DNA of 41,178 nucleotides from a virus, in IMG/VR virus record IMGVR_UViG_3300036853_000224, positions 1-41,178 of that record; one strand, written 5' to 3'. The translations under genes and the position numbers were made by a program. This document shows positions 8,392 through 34,794 of this stretch, piece after piece (positions within the stretch are counted from its first letter, which is position 1; each line of letters starts with the position of its first letter). The notes beneath the pieces were generated by a model, which was not told the origin of the DNA, did not search any database, and was given only the letters and a program-made list of their open reading frames with translations.

Positions 8392-9948
8392 ATGAAACTC
8401 CGCAAGGTGTTGGCTCGCGCCGCCGGCAAGGTCGCCGGTTGGTTGGCCGGCGCACGTAACACGTTCAAGGGCGCGGAGTTGTCCCGGCTCTGGTATGACT
8501 GGATTGCATCTCCGATCTCGGCCGATCAGGAGATCTATAACGACTTCTCGCGACTGCGGGGTCGCGCCCGCGAGATGCGCCGCAACCATCCATTGGTTCG
8601 ACAGTACATGTCGATGCTCTCGACCAACATTATCGGCGCCGACGGGATGCAACTGCGGCCGCGGGTACGCAATCGCGACGGCAAAATCAACAAGACCCTC
8701 AACGAATCGATCAAGGAAGCCTGGGACGATTGGAGCGACGAGGTCACAGTTGACGGTTTGATGGGGTTGGTCGATCTCCAACACCAACTCATCGAATGCC
8801 TCGCGGTCGATGGTGAAACGTGTCTGCGCAAGATCCGCAGCTATCCCGACAACCGATATCGCTTTGCGCTCCAGTCGATCGACCCCGATTTGTTGGACCA
8901 TCAATTTTTTCGCGCCGCCGGCGAGGGAGTCAATGAGATTCGCCTCGGAGTCGAAGTCAATGACTGGGGCAGGCCGATAGCCTACTGGTTTTGGGATCGA
9001 CACCCGACGGATCTCTATAACACCGGATCGCGGAAAAGGATGCGCGTCCCCGCGGATGAGATCCTGCACATTTACCGGCCCGATCGGGTCAACCAGACCC
9101 GCGGAACAACATGGCTCAACAGCGTCATGTTCCCCGCGAAGATGGTGGACGGGTATGTCGAGGCGGAAGTCGTCGCCGCGCGCACGGGCGCCGCGAAGAT
9201 GGGCTTTTTCGAGGTCAAGGACGGCGCCGAGTACGTGCCGCCAAAACCCGGCGAACGGTTGAGCATCGAGGCGCAGCCGGGCCAGTTCGAGGCGCTCCCG
9301 CCCGGTTACGAATTCAAACCGTGGACGCCCGACCACCCCGGCACGGCCTTTCCGTCGTTCCTCAAAGCGATTGTGCGTTGGATCGCCTCGGGCCTTCGCG
9401 TCTCCTACAACACGCTCGCGAACGATCTGGAGGGCGTGAACTATTCCAGCCTGCGATCGGCGTTGCTTACCGAACGGGACGAATGGCGGAAGTTGCAACG
9501 TTGGTGGGCGCGGCGCGTGTTGAAACCGATATACGCCGAATGGCTGGAATTCGCGCAGCTCTCGGGACAGCTCTATCTCGACTCGCGTGACTGGAACTCC
9601 TACATGCGCGTGCTGTTCATGCCGAGGGGTTGGGCGTGGGTTGATCCGTTGAAGGATGTCAACGCGAGCATTGCGGAGATCGATAACGCGCTGACCTCGC
9701 GCCAACGAGTGTTGGACGAGCAAGGCCTTGACTTCGAGACGATCGCTGAGGAGCTGTCCGAGGAACAGAAGCTCATCGAGGAACTCGGTCTCGATTTGAG
9801 CGGTATCGGCGTCGGAGGTGGCGACACCGCCGGCGACAACAACACGGACAACGGCGATCAACAGCAGCAAGGCAACAACACTGACCGCGCGAGGCGCCGC
9901 CGCGAACGGTTGCGGCTCGTATCTGGCCTACTCGCACAGGAGCGCTAG
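8392..9948 (+). CDS. Phage portal protein (lambda gpB family)
   Basis: A 518-residue portal protein. It shows the family's typical blocks: RRNHPLVRQYMSMLSTNIIG, a DGETCLRKIR strand, ADEILHIYRPDRVNQTRGTTWL and an arginine-rich helical region (DEWRKLQRWWARRVLKPIYAEWL). It forms the dodecameric ring at one capsid vertex for DNA entry and exit. The C-terminus is low in complexity (Gly/Asp/Asn/Gln runs, then RARRRRERLRL). It starts directly at the upstream stop and ends five bases before the capsid gene. Confidence 0.95.
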   Translation: MKLRKVLARAAGKVAGWLAGARNTFKGAELSRLWYDWIASPISADQEIYNDFSRLRGRAREMRRNHPLVRQYMSMLSTNIIGADGMQLRPRVRNRDGKINKTLNESIKEAWDDWSDEVTVDGLMGLVDLQHQLIECLAVDGETCLRKIRSYPDNRYRFALQSIDPDLLDHQFFRAAGEGVNEIRLGVEVNDWGRPIAYWFWDRHPTDLYNTGSRKRMRVPADEILHIYRPDRVNQTRGTTWLNSVMFPAKMVDGYVEAEVVAARTGAAKMGFFEVKDGAEYVPPKPGERLSIEAQPGQFEALPPGYEFKPWTPDHPGTAFPSFLKAIVRWIASGLRVSYNTLANDLEGVNYSSLRSALLTERDEWRKLQRWWARRVLKPIYAEWLEFAQLSGQLYLDSRDWNSYMRVLFMPRGWAWVDPLKDVNASIAEIDNALTSRQRVLDEQGLDFETIAEELSEEQKLIEELGLDLSGIGVGGGDTAGDNNTDNGDQQQQGNNTDRARRRRERLRLVSGLLAQER

Positions 9949-9952
9949 CGCC

Positions 9953-11992
9953 ATGCCTGACGATCAAACACCGAAGTCATTGAAAGAGCAGGACGAGCTA
10001 CCGCTACAGCGGCGCACGTTCAACGTCGTGATCACCAAGCGGGCCGCGGCGCCGCAGGCAGGACCGGCCGCGGAAGGCGCGCGGGGCGCTCCCGCCGGCG
10101 ATGGTGAGGACGAGGAGTTATACGACGTTTCGCTTTCATCGGAGGAACCTGTTGACCGTTGGTGGGGGCGCGAGATCCTGTTGCATGGCAAGGAAAACAT
10201 CAATTTGGAGCGGACCAAGGACGGCTTGCCGTTGTTGGCCAGCCATAACAGCCGCTCACTGCCGATCGGCCGCATGTACGACTTTCGCGTCGATGACGGC
10301 AAGCTGAGGGCGGGCCTCCGATTTTCCAAGATACAGGCCGGCCGCGACGCTAAGACGTTGGTCGATGAGGGTCACCGTGAGATGTCGATCGGCTACTCGA
10401 TCGATGAATATGAAGTGACACCCGGCAAGGCCGATGAACCATCCGTGTTTCGCGCGACGCGGTGGACCCCCATGGAGGGGTCCATCGTCGCCGTTCCTGC
10501 CGATCACACCATCGGTGTTGGTCGCAATTCAACCGGGGTGAAGTACCCCGTCCATGTTCGCAACTTGCCCAAAGCGGGCTCAACGGGAGTGACGACTATG
10601 CCAGACGATAACGCGCCGCCGGCCCGTGCCGGGGCTGACTCAAAGGTGGCCGCGGAGATCGTGCGCCGGGCCGCCCTCCATGGTTGCAGCGACCAGGTCG
10701 CCGACTGGTTGGATCGCGGGTTGACCCTCGAACAGGTCAACGAGGAGATCCTCGCCAAGCGCGCGACGGCGCCGAGCAAACAACCGGCCGCCGAACAGTT
10801 GGAGCTGTCCGAGAAGGAGCGCAAGGAATACAGCTACGCGCGGGCGATCATCGCCGGAGCGGAAGCGCGCGACGGCCGGGCCAAGAACTGCTTTGAGCTC
10901 GAGATCAGCCAGGACCTCGAAAAAAGCATGCCGATGCAGTACAAGCGCAACGGCGGCATCTTCGTTCCAACAACGCTGCGCGGTGGCAAATTCAAGCAAG
11001 AACTGCACATGTCGGCCAGTGCTGACTTGCAGCGACAACTGGATCTGTTGACCCGTGTTGGGATTATCGACTCAGTGACGACCAACGCCATCAAGGAGAC
11101 CGTCTTCACGGTCTACGGCGGCGAGCTGATCGAAATGCTACGCAATACCGCGATGGTCGTCGCGATGGGGGCGCGCGTGCTCACCGGTCTGGACTCCCCG
11201 GTTGGATTCCCGCGGCAGACCGGCGACGTGAGCGCCAACTGGGTTGCGGAGAACCCCGGCGCCGATGTCACCGCGAGCAATGTCACGACTGACATTGTCA
11301 CGCTGGCTCCCAAGACCCTGCAGGCGACCACCGCATACACGCGCCAGTTGTTGGTGCAAAGCTCGATCGACGTGGAAGCGATGGTACGCGGATCAATCGC
11401 AGCCGCGCACGGTCTGGCGTGGGACAAGGCGGCCCTACACGGAACGGGCTCGAACAATCAGCCGACCGGCATATACAACACAGCCAATGTGTTGACGGTC
11501 GATTTCAGCGACGCCAACTTCTCGAACACCGGCCAGCTGATCGCCTATACCGGCGTTGTCGAGATGGAAACGCAGGTTGCGGCGGCCAACGCGCTGTTGA
11601 GTGCGCTCGGCTACCTGACCACGCCGAACGTCGCCGGCCGTGCCAAACGCACGTTGGAATTTGCCGGCGCCGCCATCGCGCAGGGCATGCGCCTCTGGAA
11701 CGGCAAGATTTTGGACGGCGAGATGAACGGCTACACGGCGCGCGCCACCAACCAAGTCAGCAAGTTGCTCGGGACCAATGGCGTCGCGTCGCCGGCCGGT
11801 ACCTATCACGGGCTGACATTCGGAAATTGGGCTGACCTGCTCGTCGGGCAATTCGGGGGCGCTCTGGAACTCATCGTTGATCCCTATGCGCAGAAGAAGC
11901 GCGGCATCATCGAGGTGACATCGTTCCAAATGTGCGACATCGCGCTCAGGCATCCGGTCAGTTTCTGCATCGGAATCAATCTCAACAAGTAA
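9953..11992 (+). CDS. Fused HK97-type prohead protease and major capsid protein
   Basis: A 679-residue single reading frame. Residues 15-200 are an HK97 prohead protease (U35): LLASHNSRSLPIG with H98, and MSIGYSIDEYE with S146, in the expected order. After a linker and a helical scaffold-like part (about 230-340), residues 370-679 are an HK97-fold major capsid protein (GGIFVPTTLRG, PRQTGDVSANWVAENPGA, GTGSNNQPTGIYN, RHPVSFCIGINLNK). The protease probably releases the capsid domain during maturation. I start at the ATG at 9953 because the longer frame overlaps the portal gene. Confidence 0.93.
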   Translation: MPDDQTPKSLKEQDELPLQRRTFNVVITKRAAAPQAGPAAEGARGAPAGDGEDEELYDVSLSSEEPVDRWWGREILLHGKENINLERTKDGLPLLASHNSRSLPIGRMYDFRVDDGKLRAGLRFSKIQAGRDAKTLVDEGHREMSIGYSIDEYEVTPGKADEPSVFRATRWTPMEGSIVAVPADHTIGVGRNSTGVKYPVHVRNLPKAGSTGVTTMPDDNAPPARAGADSKVAAEIVRRAALHGCSDQVADWLDRGLTLEQVNEEILAKRATAPSKQPAAEQLELSEKERKEYSYARAIIAGAEARDGRAKNCFELEISQDLEKSMPMQYKRNGGIFVPTTLRGGKFKQELHMSASADLQRQLDLLTRVGIIDSVTTNAIKETVFTVYGGELIEMLRNTAMVVAMGARVLTGLDSPVGFPRQTGDVSANWVAENPGADVTASNVTTDIVTLAPKTLQATTAYTRQLLVQSSIDVEAMVRGSIAAAHGLAWDKAALHGTGSNNQPTGIYNTANVLTVDFSDANFSNTGQLIAYTGVVEMETQVAAANALLSALGYLTTPNVAGRAKRTLEFAGAAIAQGMRLWNGKILDGEMNGYTARATNQVSKLLGTNGVASPAGTYHGLTFGNWADLLVGQFGGALELIVDPYAQKKRGIIEVTSFQMCDIALRHPVSFCIGINLNK

Positions 11993-27020: not shown

Positions 27021-27809
27021 CTAGTGTCGCCCGATGGCCGACAAGAGAACCGACAATTGGAAGTTGATGGTACTCAGCGAGTAGCGGCCGGTCCGCGCGT
27101 CGCCCAGGTCGGTGAGCGTGCGGTCATACTCCACCGACACTGACCCCCAATCTCTCCAACGGTAGCTCAGTCCTAAGCCAACCTGAGGCACATTGCGCGC
27201 GGCGCCGGCGGAAGATCCCGTATGGTCTAACCCGCAGAAATACGTGGTCTCGCGTCCCGCCGGGTCGGTGTAGGTGCATTTCTCGCCGCCCAACGCGACG
27301 AAGTGCGTGACCTCGGTTCGTGTGTGTTCGATTCCCGCGCGCGCCAACACATGCAATCCGCGCCAAATAGGCCAGTAACCGAGCAACGCGCCGCCGTACC
27401 AGTGTTGATCGACAGTGAGCGCTGATCCCATGGTTATCACCTGTCCGTGCTGCCGCGCGGTTCCGCCTGTATAGATACTCGTGCCCTCCACAGCCGCGAA
27501 ATCGACCCCGCCGCCCAACATGTTGCCGAAGTAGTTCGCTTCTATTGTCAGGTGCGGCGTTAGTTCGTAGCTCAGTATCAGTCCCCACGGGTCGCTTCCC
27601 TTCCATGTTTGCTCTGAATCGAATGTTAGAGTCGCCGGCCCCTGCGGAAGATTTAGCGCATCAACGGTCGCCAGATCGTGAGCGGCGCGGGTCATCTTGC
27701 CGAATGAAGGAATCGAATAGGCAAAGCCGATTTGCGGCGAGTGCCATTCCAGCGCGAACGCGGGTGCGACCACGGCCAGAGAACCTAACGCGAGTATGCT
27801 TCGTATCAT
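27021..27809 (-). CDS. Outer-membrane beta-barrel protein
   Basis: A 262-residue protein with a cleavable signal peptide (MIRSILALGSLAVVAPAFA) and alternating aromatic beta strands typical of eight-stranded OmpA/OmpW-like barrels, ending in FQLSVLLSAIGRH. Strands such as PWGLILSYELTPHLTIEANY and VSVEYDRTLTDLG fit the outer-membrane family. The ATG at 27809 is chosen for its AAGGAC ribosome site and signal peptide; the longer frame has a hydrophilic lead. Phage-carried barrels such as lambda Lom act in lysogenic conversion. It could also block superinfection. It opposes the late operon head-on. Confidence 0.8.
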   Translation of the reverse strand: MIRSILALGSLAVVAPAFALEWHSPQIGFAYSIPSFGKMTRAAHDLATVDALNLPQGPATLTFDSEQTWKGSDPWGLILSYELTPHLTIEANYFGNMLGGGVDFAAVEGTSIYTGGTARQHGQVITMGSALTVDQHWYGGALLGYWPIWRGLHVLARAGIEHTRTEVTHFVALGGEKCTYTDPAGRETTYFCGLDHTGSSAGAARNVPQVGLGLSYRWRDWGSVSVEYDRTLTDLGDARTGRYSLSTINFQLSVLLSAIGRH

Positions 27810-27904
27810 TGCTGGGTGTCCTTGTGTGTTGTGTTTGTTGTTAGAAAAGAAGGCACGGCGCCCGTGCGGCAACCGTGCCCTTCTTGTGGCGGGTAATAGA
27901 TGAC

Positions 27905-28249
27905 TTAGCGGATCTGCTGACTCGCGGCGCTCGCGGCGGCAGCTCGCATCTGCTTGTTGAACACCTGACCTTCGTCACACTTCCTGATCAGGTTGCACAA
28001 CGTCCCGAGATCGGCGGGACACCGCCCGGCTTGCGCGTGTTGGGCCAGGATCGACAAGAAGACGTAGCGTGTGACGTCGGGGTAATTGCCGTTGCTGTTG
28101 TATTGCAGAACCGTGACCGGTTCCCCGGCGCGGATGCGCCGCTCGATCTCTTCCATCGTGATATAGCGCCCGGTCTTGCGGCAGTACAGTCGGCGATTCC
28201 CGTACCGCAAAACGCAAGACAGTGATATGGCAGCCGTCTTGTTCTTCAT
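27905..28249 (-). CDS. PhaR-type DNA-binding domain protein
   Basis: A 114-residue protein whose residues 12-70 match the N-terminal domain of PhaR, the polyhydroxyalkanoate synthesis repressor: LRYGNRRLYCRKTGRYITM corresponds to its KYPNRRLYDT then SRYITL, followed by EEIERRIRAGEPVTV and DVTRYVFLSIL. PhaR binds DNA and polyester granules. The phage protein keeps mainly the DNA-binding part, then a short Ala-rich tail. It could alter host carbon-storage genes or regulate phage genes. Confidence 0.7.
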   Translation of the reverse strand: MKNKTAAISLSCVLRYGNRRLYCRKTGRYITMEEIERRIRAGEPVTVLQYNSNGNYPDVTRYVFLSILAQHAQAGRCPADLGTLCNLIRKCDEGQVFNKQMRAAAASAASQQIR

Positions 28250-29113: not shown

Positions 29114-29812
29114 TCACGGTGGCAACCCCTGCGGGAAGTACTCGCGAATATCCGCGACTCGCTGCGACTGACAGACCGCCACGTAAGCGACGTCGAACGG
29201 CACTCGGTTGAGGTAGGGGACTGTCGGCTGCGGCGGCGAGGGCATCATGTGACACAAAAGATCATCGATGTCGGCGTTGACCAAGTTGCGGCATGCAAGG
29301 GGTCGATCGGCGTAGATGGAACACTCGCCCTGCTTCAGGAATGGACAGGGCGTGTGATAGTTGTAACTGAAGATGTCGAACTCGCGGTATTTCCGGGCGA
29401 CGTCTTTAGGCTTGATGCGCAGGCGCGCGCCTAACATCTTCGCTTCGGGCTCGATCATCACGACGGCGATATGGCAGCAATGATTGCACCCTCGCCGGCA
29501 GGCGACGTTGTCGCCGTTGTAGGAATTCATCTCATCGGCCAGGGCATAGAGTTGACGCAACCTAACCCACACGGGCTCGCGACTCCTGATGACCGCTTCG
29601 ATTCGTGGCGTGAACGTGTCGAGTTTGTCGCCCATGCGCGCGCGGATCTCGCGGACGTTGCGCTCCGCTTGCTCTGTCGAGACGCGCAAGCGGGCGCGGA
29701 CTTCGGGCGGGAACAGCGGGTTATCGGGGTCCGCTTTCGGTTCCAGCTTTGCCATGCCGGCCTGCAACACGCTATCCCAGGCATTGGCCAACTTCATGCG
29801 ATCAGACTGCAT
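29114..29812 (-). CDS. YkgJ-type cysteine-cluster protein
   Basis: A 232-residue protein with a strong ribosome site (GGAGG, nine bases before the ATG). Residues 100-180 carry the YkgJ/UPF0153 cysteine pattern: CRRGCNHCCH (C105, C109, C112, C113), PCPFL (C156), GECSIYADRPLACR (C164, C174). The family is thought to chelate zinc or iron. The first 95 residues are a helical extension. Unusual cargo for a phage; possibly a metal-dependent modifying enzyme. Confidence 0.8.
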   Translation of the reverse strand: MQSDRMKLANAWDSVLQAGMAKLEPKADPDNPLFPPEVRARLRVSTEQAERNVREIRARMGDKLDTFTPRIEAVIRSREPVWVRLRQLYALADEMNSYNGDNVACRRGCNHCCHIAVVMIEPEAKMLGARLRIKPKDVARKYREFDIFSYNYHTPCPFLKQGECSIYADRPLACRNLVNADIDDLLCHMMPSPPQPTVPYLNRVPFDVAYVAVCQSQRVADIREYFPQGLPP

Positions 29813-30031: not shown

Positions 30032-30281
30032 GTCGTTGCATCCTGCCTTGCGAGATCAACATCTCGACGTTGGTTGGAATCATCTGTCGGACCAGCCGCA
30101 AATGCGTCTCCAACACGGCATCCATGAGTTGCTGACCGCCGGGGTAGTGACCGGCGATCCAGACCGAGAGCAGCTCGGCGAGAATCGCGCCTTGGATCTC
30201 GGGCGGCCGCCCCGCCAGGAAGGGCCGGATCTGCTCGGCAACGTCTATGATCTCGACGGTTATGGGGTCAGGTTGATTCAT
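30021..30281 (-). CDS. Hypothetical helical phage protein
   Basis: An 86-residue, predominantly helical protein: IIDVAEQIRPFLAGRPPEIQ, AILAELLSVWIAGHYPGG, then a second helical part. The opening RPPEIQGAILAELLSVWIAGH is typical of small phage proteins of unknown function. It starts in an ATGA overlap with the gene upstream. Confidence 0.6.
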   Translation of the reverse strand: MNQPDPITVEIIDVAEQIRPFLAGRPPEIQGAILAELLSVWIAGHYPGGQQLMDAVLETHLRLVRQMIPTNVEMLISQGRMQRRGH

Positions 30282-30799
30282 GTTTCCCCCGGATCATCCC
30301 ACGGACCGTCGTTGCCATAGAGAACAGCGAGCAGCATGCATTGCTGGAGCGTGTAGCGTTTGGGCGGCGGCGTGGTCTCAACGCCGGCATTTTCGTAGTA
30401 CATGTCGCGCGGCATGAACCGCGCTCGTTCATCAACCTGGCAGTAATCCACGACGACAGTGAGCGGTAGCTTGATGCGCTCGCCGGCATCGTTCTCGTAC
30501 TCGCCCGCGCCGGGCGTTTCCGCCCAGGCATGTTGCACCAGCTCGCCCGTCCATGAATCGCGCACGCGCCCGTGCACCACTCGGGATTGCTCGTTACCGT
30601 GATGTTTGACCGTCCAAAATGCCACACTGAAACAGTCGCGCCGCGTGAGGCCGCGCGCGAATTCGCACCCCTTGAGCTCCGCCACCAGCTCGCCGCGTAG
30701 ATCTTCTGCGAAGACATCGCAGAACGAACAATGCTTACGCGCGACGTCTTGCGGGTCCTTGTTCACCAGCCGGCACTTCGGGCATTGATATTCCGTCAT
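30278..30799 (-). CDS. Zinc-ribbon protein with possible Cys-His-Asp triad (copy 1)
   Basis: A 173-residue protein. The N-terminus is a zinc ribbon (C6, C9, C24, C27). The remainder has conserved C56 (RRDCFSVAF), H77 (VVHGRV), H90 (VQHAWAET) and D118 (VVVDYCQVD), then RARFMPRDMYYENAGV and PPPKRYT, ending in GPW. The spacing Cys, His-Ala-Trp, Asp resembles papain/transglutaminase-like cysteine enzymes, so a C56-H90-D118 triad is suggested. It is clearly paralogous to the gene at 31011-31562. Substrate unknown. Confidence 0.65.
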   Translation of the reverse strand: MTEYQCPKCRLVNKDPQDVARKHCSFCDVFAEDLRGELVAELKGCEFARGLTRRDCFSVAFWTVKHHGNEQSRVVHGRVRDSWTGELVQHAWAETPGAGEYENDAGERIKLPLTVVVDYCQVDERARFMPRDMYYENAGVETTPPPKRYTLQQCMLLAVLYGNDGPWDDPGET

Positions 30800-31014
30800 T
30801 GGACTCGTTCGATTGTTAGGATTGTGTTGCCGCGCAACTCGCGGTATTGACCGTCGTCGCCCTGGAACACCGGAACCGGCCCGATAAAGACGCCGTGGCC
30901 AACATCCAAGATGTCATCGACAAACAACACGAGCGACCGTTGGTTTTGCGACGCAAAGATGATATAGCCTTCAACGGTCTTGCCATTGCTAGTGATCTTG
31001 ACCCGCCGCGTCAT
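30796..31014 (-). CDS. Small beta-rich protein
   Basis: A 72-residue protein starting in an ATGA overlap with the stop of the upstream paralogue. It is all short strands (VKITSNGKTVEGYIIFA, SLVLFVDDILDVG, NTILTIERV), consistent with a small barrel. It is placed between the two copies of the zinc-ribbon/triad protein. Function unknown. Confidence 0.6.
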   Translation of the reverse strand: MTRRVKITSNGKTVEGYIIFASQNQRSLVLFVDDILDVGHGVFIGPVPVFQGDDGQYRELRGNTILTIERVQ

Positions 31015-31562
31015 GCGTCCCCCGGTTCCGGCCATGGCCCATAGTCTCGATGCATCAATGACAGCAGAATTGTCAGCTCGCGCGTGTAGCGCTTCGGCGG
31101 CGGTAGGAGGCGGACTCCCGCGCTCTCGTAATAAGGGCCCCGCAACATGAACCGCGCGCGCGGATCGACCTGGCAGTAATCAACAACGATCAGGGCCGGG
31201 ATATCTACATGTTGCCCGATCTCGCACGCCGGCGTCTCTACCCAGGCATGCTCGACGTACGCGACCGATCGGGCTCTGATCCTGTTACGGACGCGGCGCG
31301 CCGCGCGCACTAATCCGTGAGCCAGACGGGCTTCGCGGTGGCGTACGTGTTCGATCAACGTTTGAGCGGCCACACTGTAGCAATCGCGGCAGGTCAACGC
31401 GCCGGTCTCGAAAAAACCGTTGCACAAGGCGCGGACCGGTTCGACCCGCAACTCCTCCGCGAAGAGATCGCAGAACGAGCAATGTCTGTGGGCGACATCG
31501 CGGGGGTCGGTGTTGGTCAACCGACACTTGGGACAGATGTAGATATAGACCTCGTCAAGCAT
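31011..31562 (-). CDS. Zinc-ribbon protein with possible Cys-His-Asp triad (copy 2)
   Basis: A 183-residue paralogue of the 30278-30799 gene, with the same order: ribbon cysteines C10, C13, C28, C31; then C61 (CRDCYSVA), H82, H105 (VEHAWVET), D128 (IVVDYCQVD), RARFMLRGPYYESAGV, PPPKRYT and YGPW. The central linker is longer and arginine-rich. The ATG at 31562 is chosen because it overlaps the previous stop; the longer frame upstream covers another gene. Both keep the putative triad, so neither looks decayed. Confidence 0.65.
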   Translation of the reverse strand: MLDEVYIYICPKCRLTNTDPRDVAHRHCSFCDLFAEELRVEPVRALCNGFFETGALTCRDCYSVAAQTLIEHVRHREARLAHGLVRAARRVRNRIRARSVAYVEHAWVETPACEIGQHVDIPALIVVDYCQVDPRARFMLRGPYYESAGVRLLPPPKRYTRELTILLSLMHRDYGPWPEPGDA

Positions 31563-33272: not shown

Positions 33273-33293
33273 TGCCTATATAATTGCCTATAT
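33273..33293 (+). repeat. Right arm-type pair TGCCTATAT x2
   Basis: Exact copies starting at 33273 and 33285, separated by AAT, overlapping the -10 element of the int promoter. Binding of integrase here would repress its own transcription. Confidence 0.65.
33279..33284 (+). promoter_or_regulatory. int promoter -10 element (TATAAT)
   Basis: A perfect TATAAT lies 48 bases before the small gene at 33332 and about 200 before int. No good -35 is seen at 16-18 bp. A second candidate -10 (TATAAG at 33309) sits nearer, with TTGCCT at 33284 as a weak -35 at 19 bp. Confidence 0.5.
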
Positions 33294-33331
33294 GGCGCAC
33301 CCCGCGCCTATAAGACAACGACAACGTAGGG

Positions 33332-33475
33332 ATGCACATGCAAGACAAATTGATGACCGCCGCGGCCTTGGTTGCCGCGCTCGTTCTGTTCGCCGAGATC
33401 GTGACCCACTTCCCGCTCGCCGGCGTCCGCGCCGTGACGCATGCCGTCGAGACGTCCACCCCAGGAGGCCGCTAA
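33332..33475 (+). CDS. Small single-pass membrane protein upstream of int
   Basis: A 47-residue protein. After MHMQDKLM comes a hydrophobic helix (TAAALVAALVLFAEIV, residues 9-24) and a polar tail ending TSTPGGR. A TAGGG element lies right at the ATG. Its stop is two bases before the int ATG, and the int ribosome site (AGGAGG) lies in its last codons, so the two are coupled. Function unknown; its helix could anchor it in the inner membrane. Confidence 0.5.
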   Translation: MHMQDKLMTAAALVAALVLFAEIVTHFPLAGVRAVTHAVETSTPGGR

Positions 33476-33477
33476 CC

Positions 33478-34794
33478 ATGCTCACCGAGAAGACTGTCGC
33501 CGCCGCGAAACCCAACGCCGACAAAGCCTATCGCCTATGGGACGAGGGCGGCGGCGGGCTGTATCTGGACGTCATGACATCCGGCCGCAAGGTCTGGCGG
33601 ATGCAGTGCCGCGTCGCCGGCAAAGACGTGCTGCTGACCTTCGGCCGGTACGATCCCAACGCCGCGACGCATGTGTCACTGAAGCAGGCGCGCGAGCGCC
33701 GCGACAAAGCCCAACGCGACATCCGGGACGGCAAGGACCCGCGCGAAGAAGATCGAAAACGCGAGGCGGCGATCGTCGCGACGCTCAACCCGGCCGATGC
33801 CAACCGGCTGCGCACGGTAGCCCTGGCCTATCTCGACGTCCGCAACGGACAGGACCCGAAAAGCAAACACCAGGACCAACGCCGCCTCGAGATGTATATT
33901 TTCCCGTACAAGGTCGCGCGGTTGGGCGACCGGATCATGGGCGACACTGACATACGCGAACTGGAGGACGGCGATTTACTGGCCGCCCTCCGCGCGATCG
34001 AAGCGAAGGGGTTGCAGCCTCTCGCGCACAAGATCAAAACCCTGTGCAGCGGCATCTGGAAGCACGCGAAGCACTCTCGCAAATGCGCCACCAACATCGT
34101 TGCGGACCTCGCCGGCACGATCAAACGGGGCGACGACAATCACTATGCCAGCATCCAAGAACCGCCGCGGATCGGTAAGTTGTTGCTCGACATAGACGGC
34201 TACTGGGGCCAGCCCGAGACGGTCTATTGTCTGCGCCTGCAACCGTTCTGGTTCCTGCGGTCTCACACGTTGCGTCATATCGAGTGGACGTGGGTCGATT
34301 GGGACAACACATTGATCCGAATCCCGCCCGGCGCGATGAAACGCAAACACTGGCACGTTGTACCGCTCGCCCGTCAGGCGATCGTGTTGTTACGCGAGTT
34401 GCAAGAACTGACCGGCGGTCGGTCCAAATACCTATTCCCGAGTCTGCGCACGACCGGGCGCCCGATCTCCGACGGCACGTTGAACGGGGCGCTGCGGCGT
34501 CTCGGCTACTCCAAAGCCGACCAAACGACGCACGGCTTCCGCGCGATCGCCGACACGCACTTACACGAAATGGGATACGCCGACGGGTGGATCGACGTGC
34601 AAATGTCACACCTGAAGAAGAGCAAGACCAAACGCGCCTATGACTACGCGCAATACCTAGCCGACCCCAACACTGACCGCCGGCCCCGCCATGAGATGAT
34701 GCAAGCCTGGGCGGACTATCTCGACAAGTTGCGCGAAAAAGCGCGGCGCACCCATTCCAACACCAACAACGTCATCCCAATGACAGCAGCCTAA
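33478..34794 (+). CDS. int: Tyrosine integrase (P4 type)
   Basis: A 438-residue recombinase. Residues 1-85 are the DUF4102 arm-binding domain (LYLDVMTSGRKVWRM, TFGRYDPNAATHVSLKQAR). The core-binding region follows (about 105-200), then the catalytic domain: FLRSHTLRHIEW (first Arg), MKRKHWHVVPL (Lys), HGFRAIADTHLHE (HxxR), MSHLKKSKTKRAYDYAQYL (His and nucleophilic Tyr). The segment after the Tyr has a short insertion. The usual Glu after the first Arg is Thr here. AGGAGG precedes the ATG. It integrates phage DNA at attP, next to which it lies. Confidence 0.95.
   Translation: MLTEKTVAAAKPNADKAYRLWDEGGGGLYLDVMTSGRKVWRMQCRVAGKDVLLTFGRYDPNAATHVSLKQARERRDKAQRDIRDGKDPREEDRKREAAIVATLNPADANRLRTVALAYLDVRNGQDPKSKHQDQRRLEMYIFPYKVARLGDRIMGDTDIRELEDGDLLAALRAIEAKGLQPLAHKIKTLCSGIWKHAKHSRKCATNIVADLAGTIKRGDDNHYASIQEPPRIGKLLLDIDGYWGQPETVYCLRLQPFWFLRSHTLRHIEWTWVDWDNTLIRIPPGAMKRKHWHVVPLARQAIVLLRELQELTGGRSKYLFPSLRTTGRPISDGTLNGALRRLGYSKADQTTHGFRAIADTHLHEMGYADGWIDVQMSHLKKSKTKRAYDYAQYLADPNTDRRPRHEMMQAWADYLDKLREKARRTHSNTNNVIPMTAA

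Follow-up and report, generated by a model that had tools for sequence, protein, structure and literature searches.

Paralogous genes in a leftward accessory block

The window analysed here is a stretch of viral DNA of 41,178 nucleotides from a temperate phage, positions 1 to 41,178 of IMG/VR record IMGVR_UViG_3300036853_000224. We found that its minus strand carries two tandem paralogous genes, P0001 and P0002, separated by one small gene as had originally been predicted (Table 1). BLASTP aligned the two proteins over their whole length at 48% identity (E = 2e-55), and MAFFT gave 52%. Both genes belong to a block of small leftward genes, which is flanked by the rightward structural genes on one side and by the integrase (33292-34794) on the other. 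Read from the sequence, three junctions are ATGA overlaps (31014, 30799 and 30281), and a fourth, where P0002 starts, is an overlap of 8 bases; because of these overlaps the five genes from 31842 down to 30021 probably form one translationally coupled operon. The small gene between the copies matched no family in Pfam, PHROGs or NCBIfam, and the 86-aa gene downstream of P0001 has a relative at 59% identity elsewhere in the related phage L115/L117, which is described below. Furthermore, codon analysis revealed that third positions were the least conserved between P0001 and P0002 and that dN/dS was about 0.25 (0.41/1.64, with dS near saturation). Judged from the codons, both copies are therefore under purifying selection at the protein level, in line with the expectation that two copies keeping all of their motifs are probably both functional.

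Table 1. Genes and residues of the P0001/P0002 locus (coordinates of the window; residue numbers of the protein named)
Feature	Position	Strand	Basis
P0001, 173 aa, N-terminal four-Cys zinc ribbon (predicted) and transglutaminase-like domain	30278..30799	-	sequence, profile, alignment, model
P0002, 183 aa, paralogue with the architecture of P0001; predicted triad C61, H105, D128	31011..31562	-	ORF, BLASTP, profile, alignment
Small gene between the copies	30796..31014	-	72 aa from an ATG overlapping the P0002 stop; 79 aa if the start is 31035
Upstream gene of the operon, 95 aa	31555..31842	-	shares 8 bases with the start of P0002
Downstream gene of the operon, 86 aa	30021..30281	-	ATGA overlap with P0001
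P0001 predicted zinc ribbon core, C6-C9...C24-C27 (CPKC-x14-CSFC)	30719..30784	-	invariant in P0001, P0002 and L115
P0002 predicted zinc ribbon core, C10-C13...C28-C31	31470..31535	-	sequence, alignment
P0001 C56, predicted nucleophile	30632..30634	-	invariant 37/37; first residue of helix 56-67
P0001 H90 of HAW, predicted catalytic His	30530..30532	-	invariant 37/37, partly by selection; strand 87-102
P0001 D118, predicted third catalytic residue	30446..30448	-	invariant 37/37, partly by selection; follows strand 108-117

Several other genes of the window could be recognised. The accessory block encodes a PhaR-type DNA-binding protein (27908-28249, minus strand; PHB_acc_N, E = 9.5e-12), a domain that is normally part of a bacterial polyhydroxyalkanoate-storage regulator, and a predicted outer-membrane beta-barrel (27021-27872, minus strand; OMP_b-brl, E = 5.9e-5, below the cut-off). 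A putative metal-chelating CxxCxxCC (YkgJ-like) protein is encoded downstream of the pair, a few genes away (29114-29812, minus strand; E = 2.9e-8). On the plus strand, the gene at 4565-5284 matches, at the DNA level, genes of the acetyltransferase/Mom-like type from phages of Microbacterium and Arthrobacter (83-96% over 49-84 bases), which suggests a DNA-modification gene, and the major head protein at 9818-11992 also matches head maturation protease families and is apparently a protease-capsid fusion.

Shared motifs and a candidate zinc ribbon

Alignment of P0001 and P0002 revealed that they have in common (P0001 numbering) C6, C9, C24 and C27, C56, H76-G77, H90-A91-W92 and V117-D118, followed by YYE134-136, PPPKRYT144-150 and GPW165-167. 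The four ribbon cysteines, the later Cys and the HAW, YYE and PPPKRYT motifs of the original prediction are all seen here in both copies. We found one further protein with the same ribbon and enzyme architecture, 51% identical to P0001, in record IMGVR_UViG_3300036853_000149 (L115/L117, hereafter L115). This phage is related to that of the window, with tail-region proteins 75-81% identical, and differs from it in that its 41.2-kb record holds a single copy, in which Thr replaces C120. The predicted VVDYCQVD motif is thus present in both window proteins without being general, and VxD is the sole part of it that is kept across the whole family described below. Like the window pair, the L115 gene adjoins an integrase and a predicted outer-membrane barrel gene. 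The latter was judged by eye (L115:6766-7623, minus strand, in the accessory block of that phage), and the two barrel proteins are not detectably related to each other.

The two CxxC knuckles have conserved spacing (CPKC-x14-C[SP]FC) in all three ribbon-bearing proteins, and we infer that the four-Cys knob is a zinc-binding ribbon; a Pfam search gave only sub-threshold matches to known ribbon families (DUF7128, E = 0.08). The pattern YYE..GV..PPKRY retrieved no further ribbon members, and a ribbon match in mycobacteriophage Rey was unrelated. In the family tree the ribbon-bearing members form a clade (support 0.99) and the two window copies are joined to each other (0.92). The duplication therefore probably took place within the lineage of the window phage.

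An unnamed family in uncultured viruses and plasmids

On their own, P0001 and P0002 matched no family in Pfam, PHROGs or NCBIfam. When P0001 or the pair served as query, no matches came from pattern and tblastn searches of contigs in IMG/VR and GTDB or from tblastn of phages and plasmids; no homologue of the pair was present in 29 records of terminase-related viruses, and a PDB sequence search returned chance matches only. Candidates that were rejected include a single chance match to a VDYCQVD pattern (L003), one unrelated cyanophage ORF, which was all that a probe modelled on similar phage proteins matched, and two unrelated low-score matches (H13 and H14).

A DNA pattern consisting of HAWVE and then V.D retrieved 81 viral stretches, and about half of them encode a clear family with G-D/Q-C-[YF]..A followed by VHG, HAWVE, VxD, YY, YT and GPW. 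L115 was found with a second pattern that has the longer HAW-to-D gap of the window proteins. In addition, tblastn rather than a motif identified as a member WP_342632770.1, a 'hypothetical protein' of a Marinobacter plasmid, which also carries the Cys, His and Asp. When cultured-phage genomes were searched by tblastn with family members, none was found, and the family therefore seems rare in isolates.

Because the DNA pattern fixes HAWVE and V.D, the relation of the window proteins to this family was tested with and without the motifs. A family profile of 28 members, with the window proteins excluded and the database size set to 100000, gave E-values of 2.6e-14 for P0001 and 2.4e-8 for P0002, the best of 1000 shuffled sequences reaching 44. 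With HAWxE, VVDY and GPW masked, P0001 matched the profile at E = 2.3e-4, and the match of P0002 with the selected motifs masked was not significant (E = 0.58). Alignment of the pair with 14 members by hhalign gave a probability of 98.5% (E = 2.6e-15), and the Cys, HAWxE, VxD, YY, YT and GPW were found in this order both in the window proteins and in the family. By these sequence comparisons, P0001 and P0002 belong to a real, unnamed family in uncultured viral contigs and some plasmids.

Members such as L036, L079, L094, L100, L108 and WP_342632770.1 have the same domain as P0001 from the Cys to GPW but are without the N-terminal zinc ribbon, and their HAWVE-to-VxD gap is short whereas P0001, P0002 and L115 carry a longer insertion. 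The domain also occurs twice in a larger protein (L109:9120-11117, minus strand), and in two others (L046:100-1866 and L083:4428-5480, both plus strand; the latter matches phrog_2579, E = 1.3e-8) it is followed by a common segment, IFRA...NDY[IV]T.S.KFA..H. On plasmid pGSUB1 (NZ_CP010312.1, 194120-195963) a TnpB gene splits a family member into halves at 195829-195936 and 194129-194347. Two weaker HAWVE proteins with the motifs C..NA ... EG ... HAWVE ... VLD.T ... Y.GVPF (L040:7085-7651 and L088:861-1463, both minus strand) resemble members of a sister family of transglutaminase-like phage proteins.

Predicted catalytic residues and fold

We found that C56, H90, A91, W92, E94, D118, G165 and W167 were invariant across 37 aligned sequences. 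The original prediction of a Cys-His-Asp enzyme depended on homologues retaining the triad, and C56, H90 and D118 were kept in all 37, at 18-52% identity to P0001. Conservation of the His and Asp is partly by construction, as the search pattern contains HAWVE and V.D; the Cys was absent from the DNA pattern. The regular expression used to select family members required only that there be some Cys upstream, and members added later through the profile alone also carry the Cys in register.

Comparison with Pfam showed that Transglut_core3 (PF13471) matches 19 of the 37 members at E <= 1 (best 7.1e-4), these 19 being kin and so not independent tests, and that each other Pfam family matches at most one. 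P0001 and P0002 themselves had no match to Transglut_core3 at E <= 10, and the curated cut-off was not reached. The lasso B2 protease model gave a weak match in one of 14 members.

An AlphaFold2 model built with the family alignment reached a pLDDT of 83.5 and a pTM of 0.73. Residues 51-120 contain blocks with a pLDDT of 86-96, and the ribbon part is less certain (59-73). In this model helix 56-67 starts at C56, strand 87-102 contains H90, and D118 comes just after strand 108-117. This predicted helix(Cys)-strand(His)-strand(Asp) order is that of papain and transglutaminase, in agreement with the original reading of the Cys, His, Asp order. An earlier run with two sequences was poor (pLDDT 42), with the same element order, and was left out of the claims. 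When the PDB was searched with Foldseek, the top match was staphopain (E = 0.12, probability 0.75, not significant), and SpvD, SseI, VASH2, USPL1 and phytochelatin synthase, all papain-like, were among the first 50 matches; no fold match in PDB or BFVD reached E <= 0.001. On sequence and model, a papain/transglutaminase fold is likely, not proven, and P0001 and P0002 are very probably thiol enzymes of this transglutaminase-like/papain-fold type. The enzyme reading is thus supported by the triad, the Transglut_core3 matches and the order of the predicted elements; it had been put forward with no characterised member known, and we found none for this family.

Proposed activity and role

We propose, with a probability of about 0.7, that P0001 and P0002 are paralogous small Cys enzymes of the transglutaminase-like branch of the papain fold, each with an N-terminal zinc ribbon. 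In the transglutaminase-like/papain superfamily a Cys-His pair attacks an amide and an Asp orients the His. By the same chemistry C56, activated by H90 and with D118 in the orienting role, would attack a protein at a backbone or side-chain amide. Water would resolve the resulting acyl-enzyme, as in a peptidase or Gln deamidase; resolution by an amine, as in a transglutaminase, is less likely. By analogy a peptidase or deamidase is the most likely activity, and cross-linking is possible. The ribbon would bind or position the target, and probably binds it, because ribbon-less members keep the catalytic core. The likely target would be a protein of the host, acted on in infected cells or lysogens, because the genes lie in the leftward accessory block adjoining the integrase, away from the structural genes. 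Their position in this block, together with the proximity to an integrase and a predicted barrel gene that is also seen in L115, suggests an accessory role during infection or in lysogens. With two copies, the phage could address two targets or form a heterodimer.

In one relative the domain is joined to others. The L075 protein, of 882 aa, combines the family domain with a head-morphogenesis domain, Phage_Mu_F (E = 5.2e-12), and has a weak ADP-ribosyltransferase match (E = 0.005, below the cut-off) in which FLSTST and ExE motifs are visible, hinting at a host-directed effector. The MuF domain is absent from P0001 and P0002 by Pfam search and was present only in this relative. A tentative, broader possibility is that the family as a whole comprises widespread, undescribed thiol enzymes with which phages and plasmids act on host proteins, delivered in the virion (as the MuF/ADP-ribosyltransferase fusions may be) or made in the cell, and that the duplicated ribbon form has specialised as a pair directed at two host proteins.

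A narrower form of the accessory enzyme explanation is that the pair serves in counter-defence or superinfection exclusion, made in the infected cell or lysogen. This accords with an accessory block in which a regulator and a predicted outer-membrane barrel are encoded, and with the L115 relative, which also adjoins a predicted barrel gene and the integrase although the barrels are not detectably related; we nevertheless regard it as rather unlikely, as no defence-related neighbour was recognised and a promoter scan was uninformative. It is improbable that the proteins have the papain/transglutaminase fold and no enzyme activity, being binding proteins in which Cys, His and Asp serve a metal site or the structure, which would make the whole protein a two-site zinc protein. 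The zinc ribbon and the CxxCxxCC protein nearby in the same block are compatible with such a role, but the triad is invariant in ribbon-less members, and so are the W and E of HAWxE, residues that mark transglutaminase-like enzymes, and a purely structural role should tolerate loss of the Cys in some of 37 divergent members. Marginally more improbable still is that P0001 and P0002 are themselves effectors carried in the virion that reach the host together with the DNA, a route proposed for MuF-fused proteins. In its favour is the L075 protein with its MuF domain and weak ADP-ribosyltransferase match; against it, P0001 and P0002 are not fused to a head protein, and their genes occupy the leftward accessory block by the integrase, outside the rightward set of head genes.

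Comparison with known systems

What is new here is the surrounding family, which is widespread in uncultured viruses and absent from Pfam, PHROGs and NCBIfam. Since none of these collections has a model for it, the members of this sizeable family of likely Cys enzymes are left as hypothetical proteins. Naming the family, with its predicted catalytic residues and the MuF fusion, makes its function testable by simple point mutants.

The best-matching known family is Transglut_core3 (PF13471), which corresponds to MEROPS C96, the lasso peptide B2/McjB-type proteases (grouping from PMC10318531). The Cys-His-Asp order and a HAW-type motif are common to both families, whereas the ribbon and the motifs VHG, YY, YT and GPW set the unnamed one apart, and no lasso peptide context was seen for it. 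Staphopain, SseI, SpvD and vasohibin are like P0001 in the predicted helix(Cys)-strand(His)-strand(Asp) order, with fold matches that are weak and not significant. Among surveys of phage proteins, that of MuF toxins proposes that DNA injection may be the step at which such toxin domains are delivered, and its main text mentions neither papain nor transglutaminase (PMC5576092). The paper on phage polyvalent proteins describes four peptidase superfamilies (zincin-like, assemblin-like, DD and LonC), and because papain and transglutaminase are absent from its text (PMC5512222), the present family could add a protease-type class to the phage conflict proteins.
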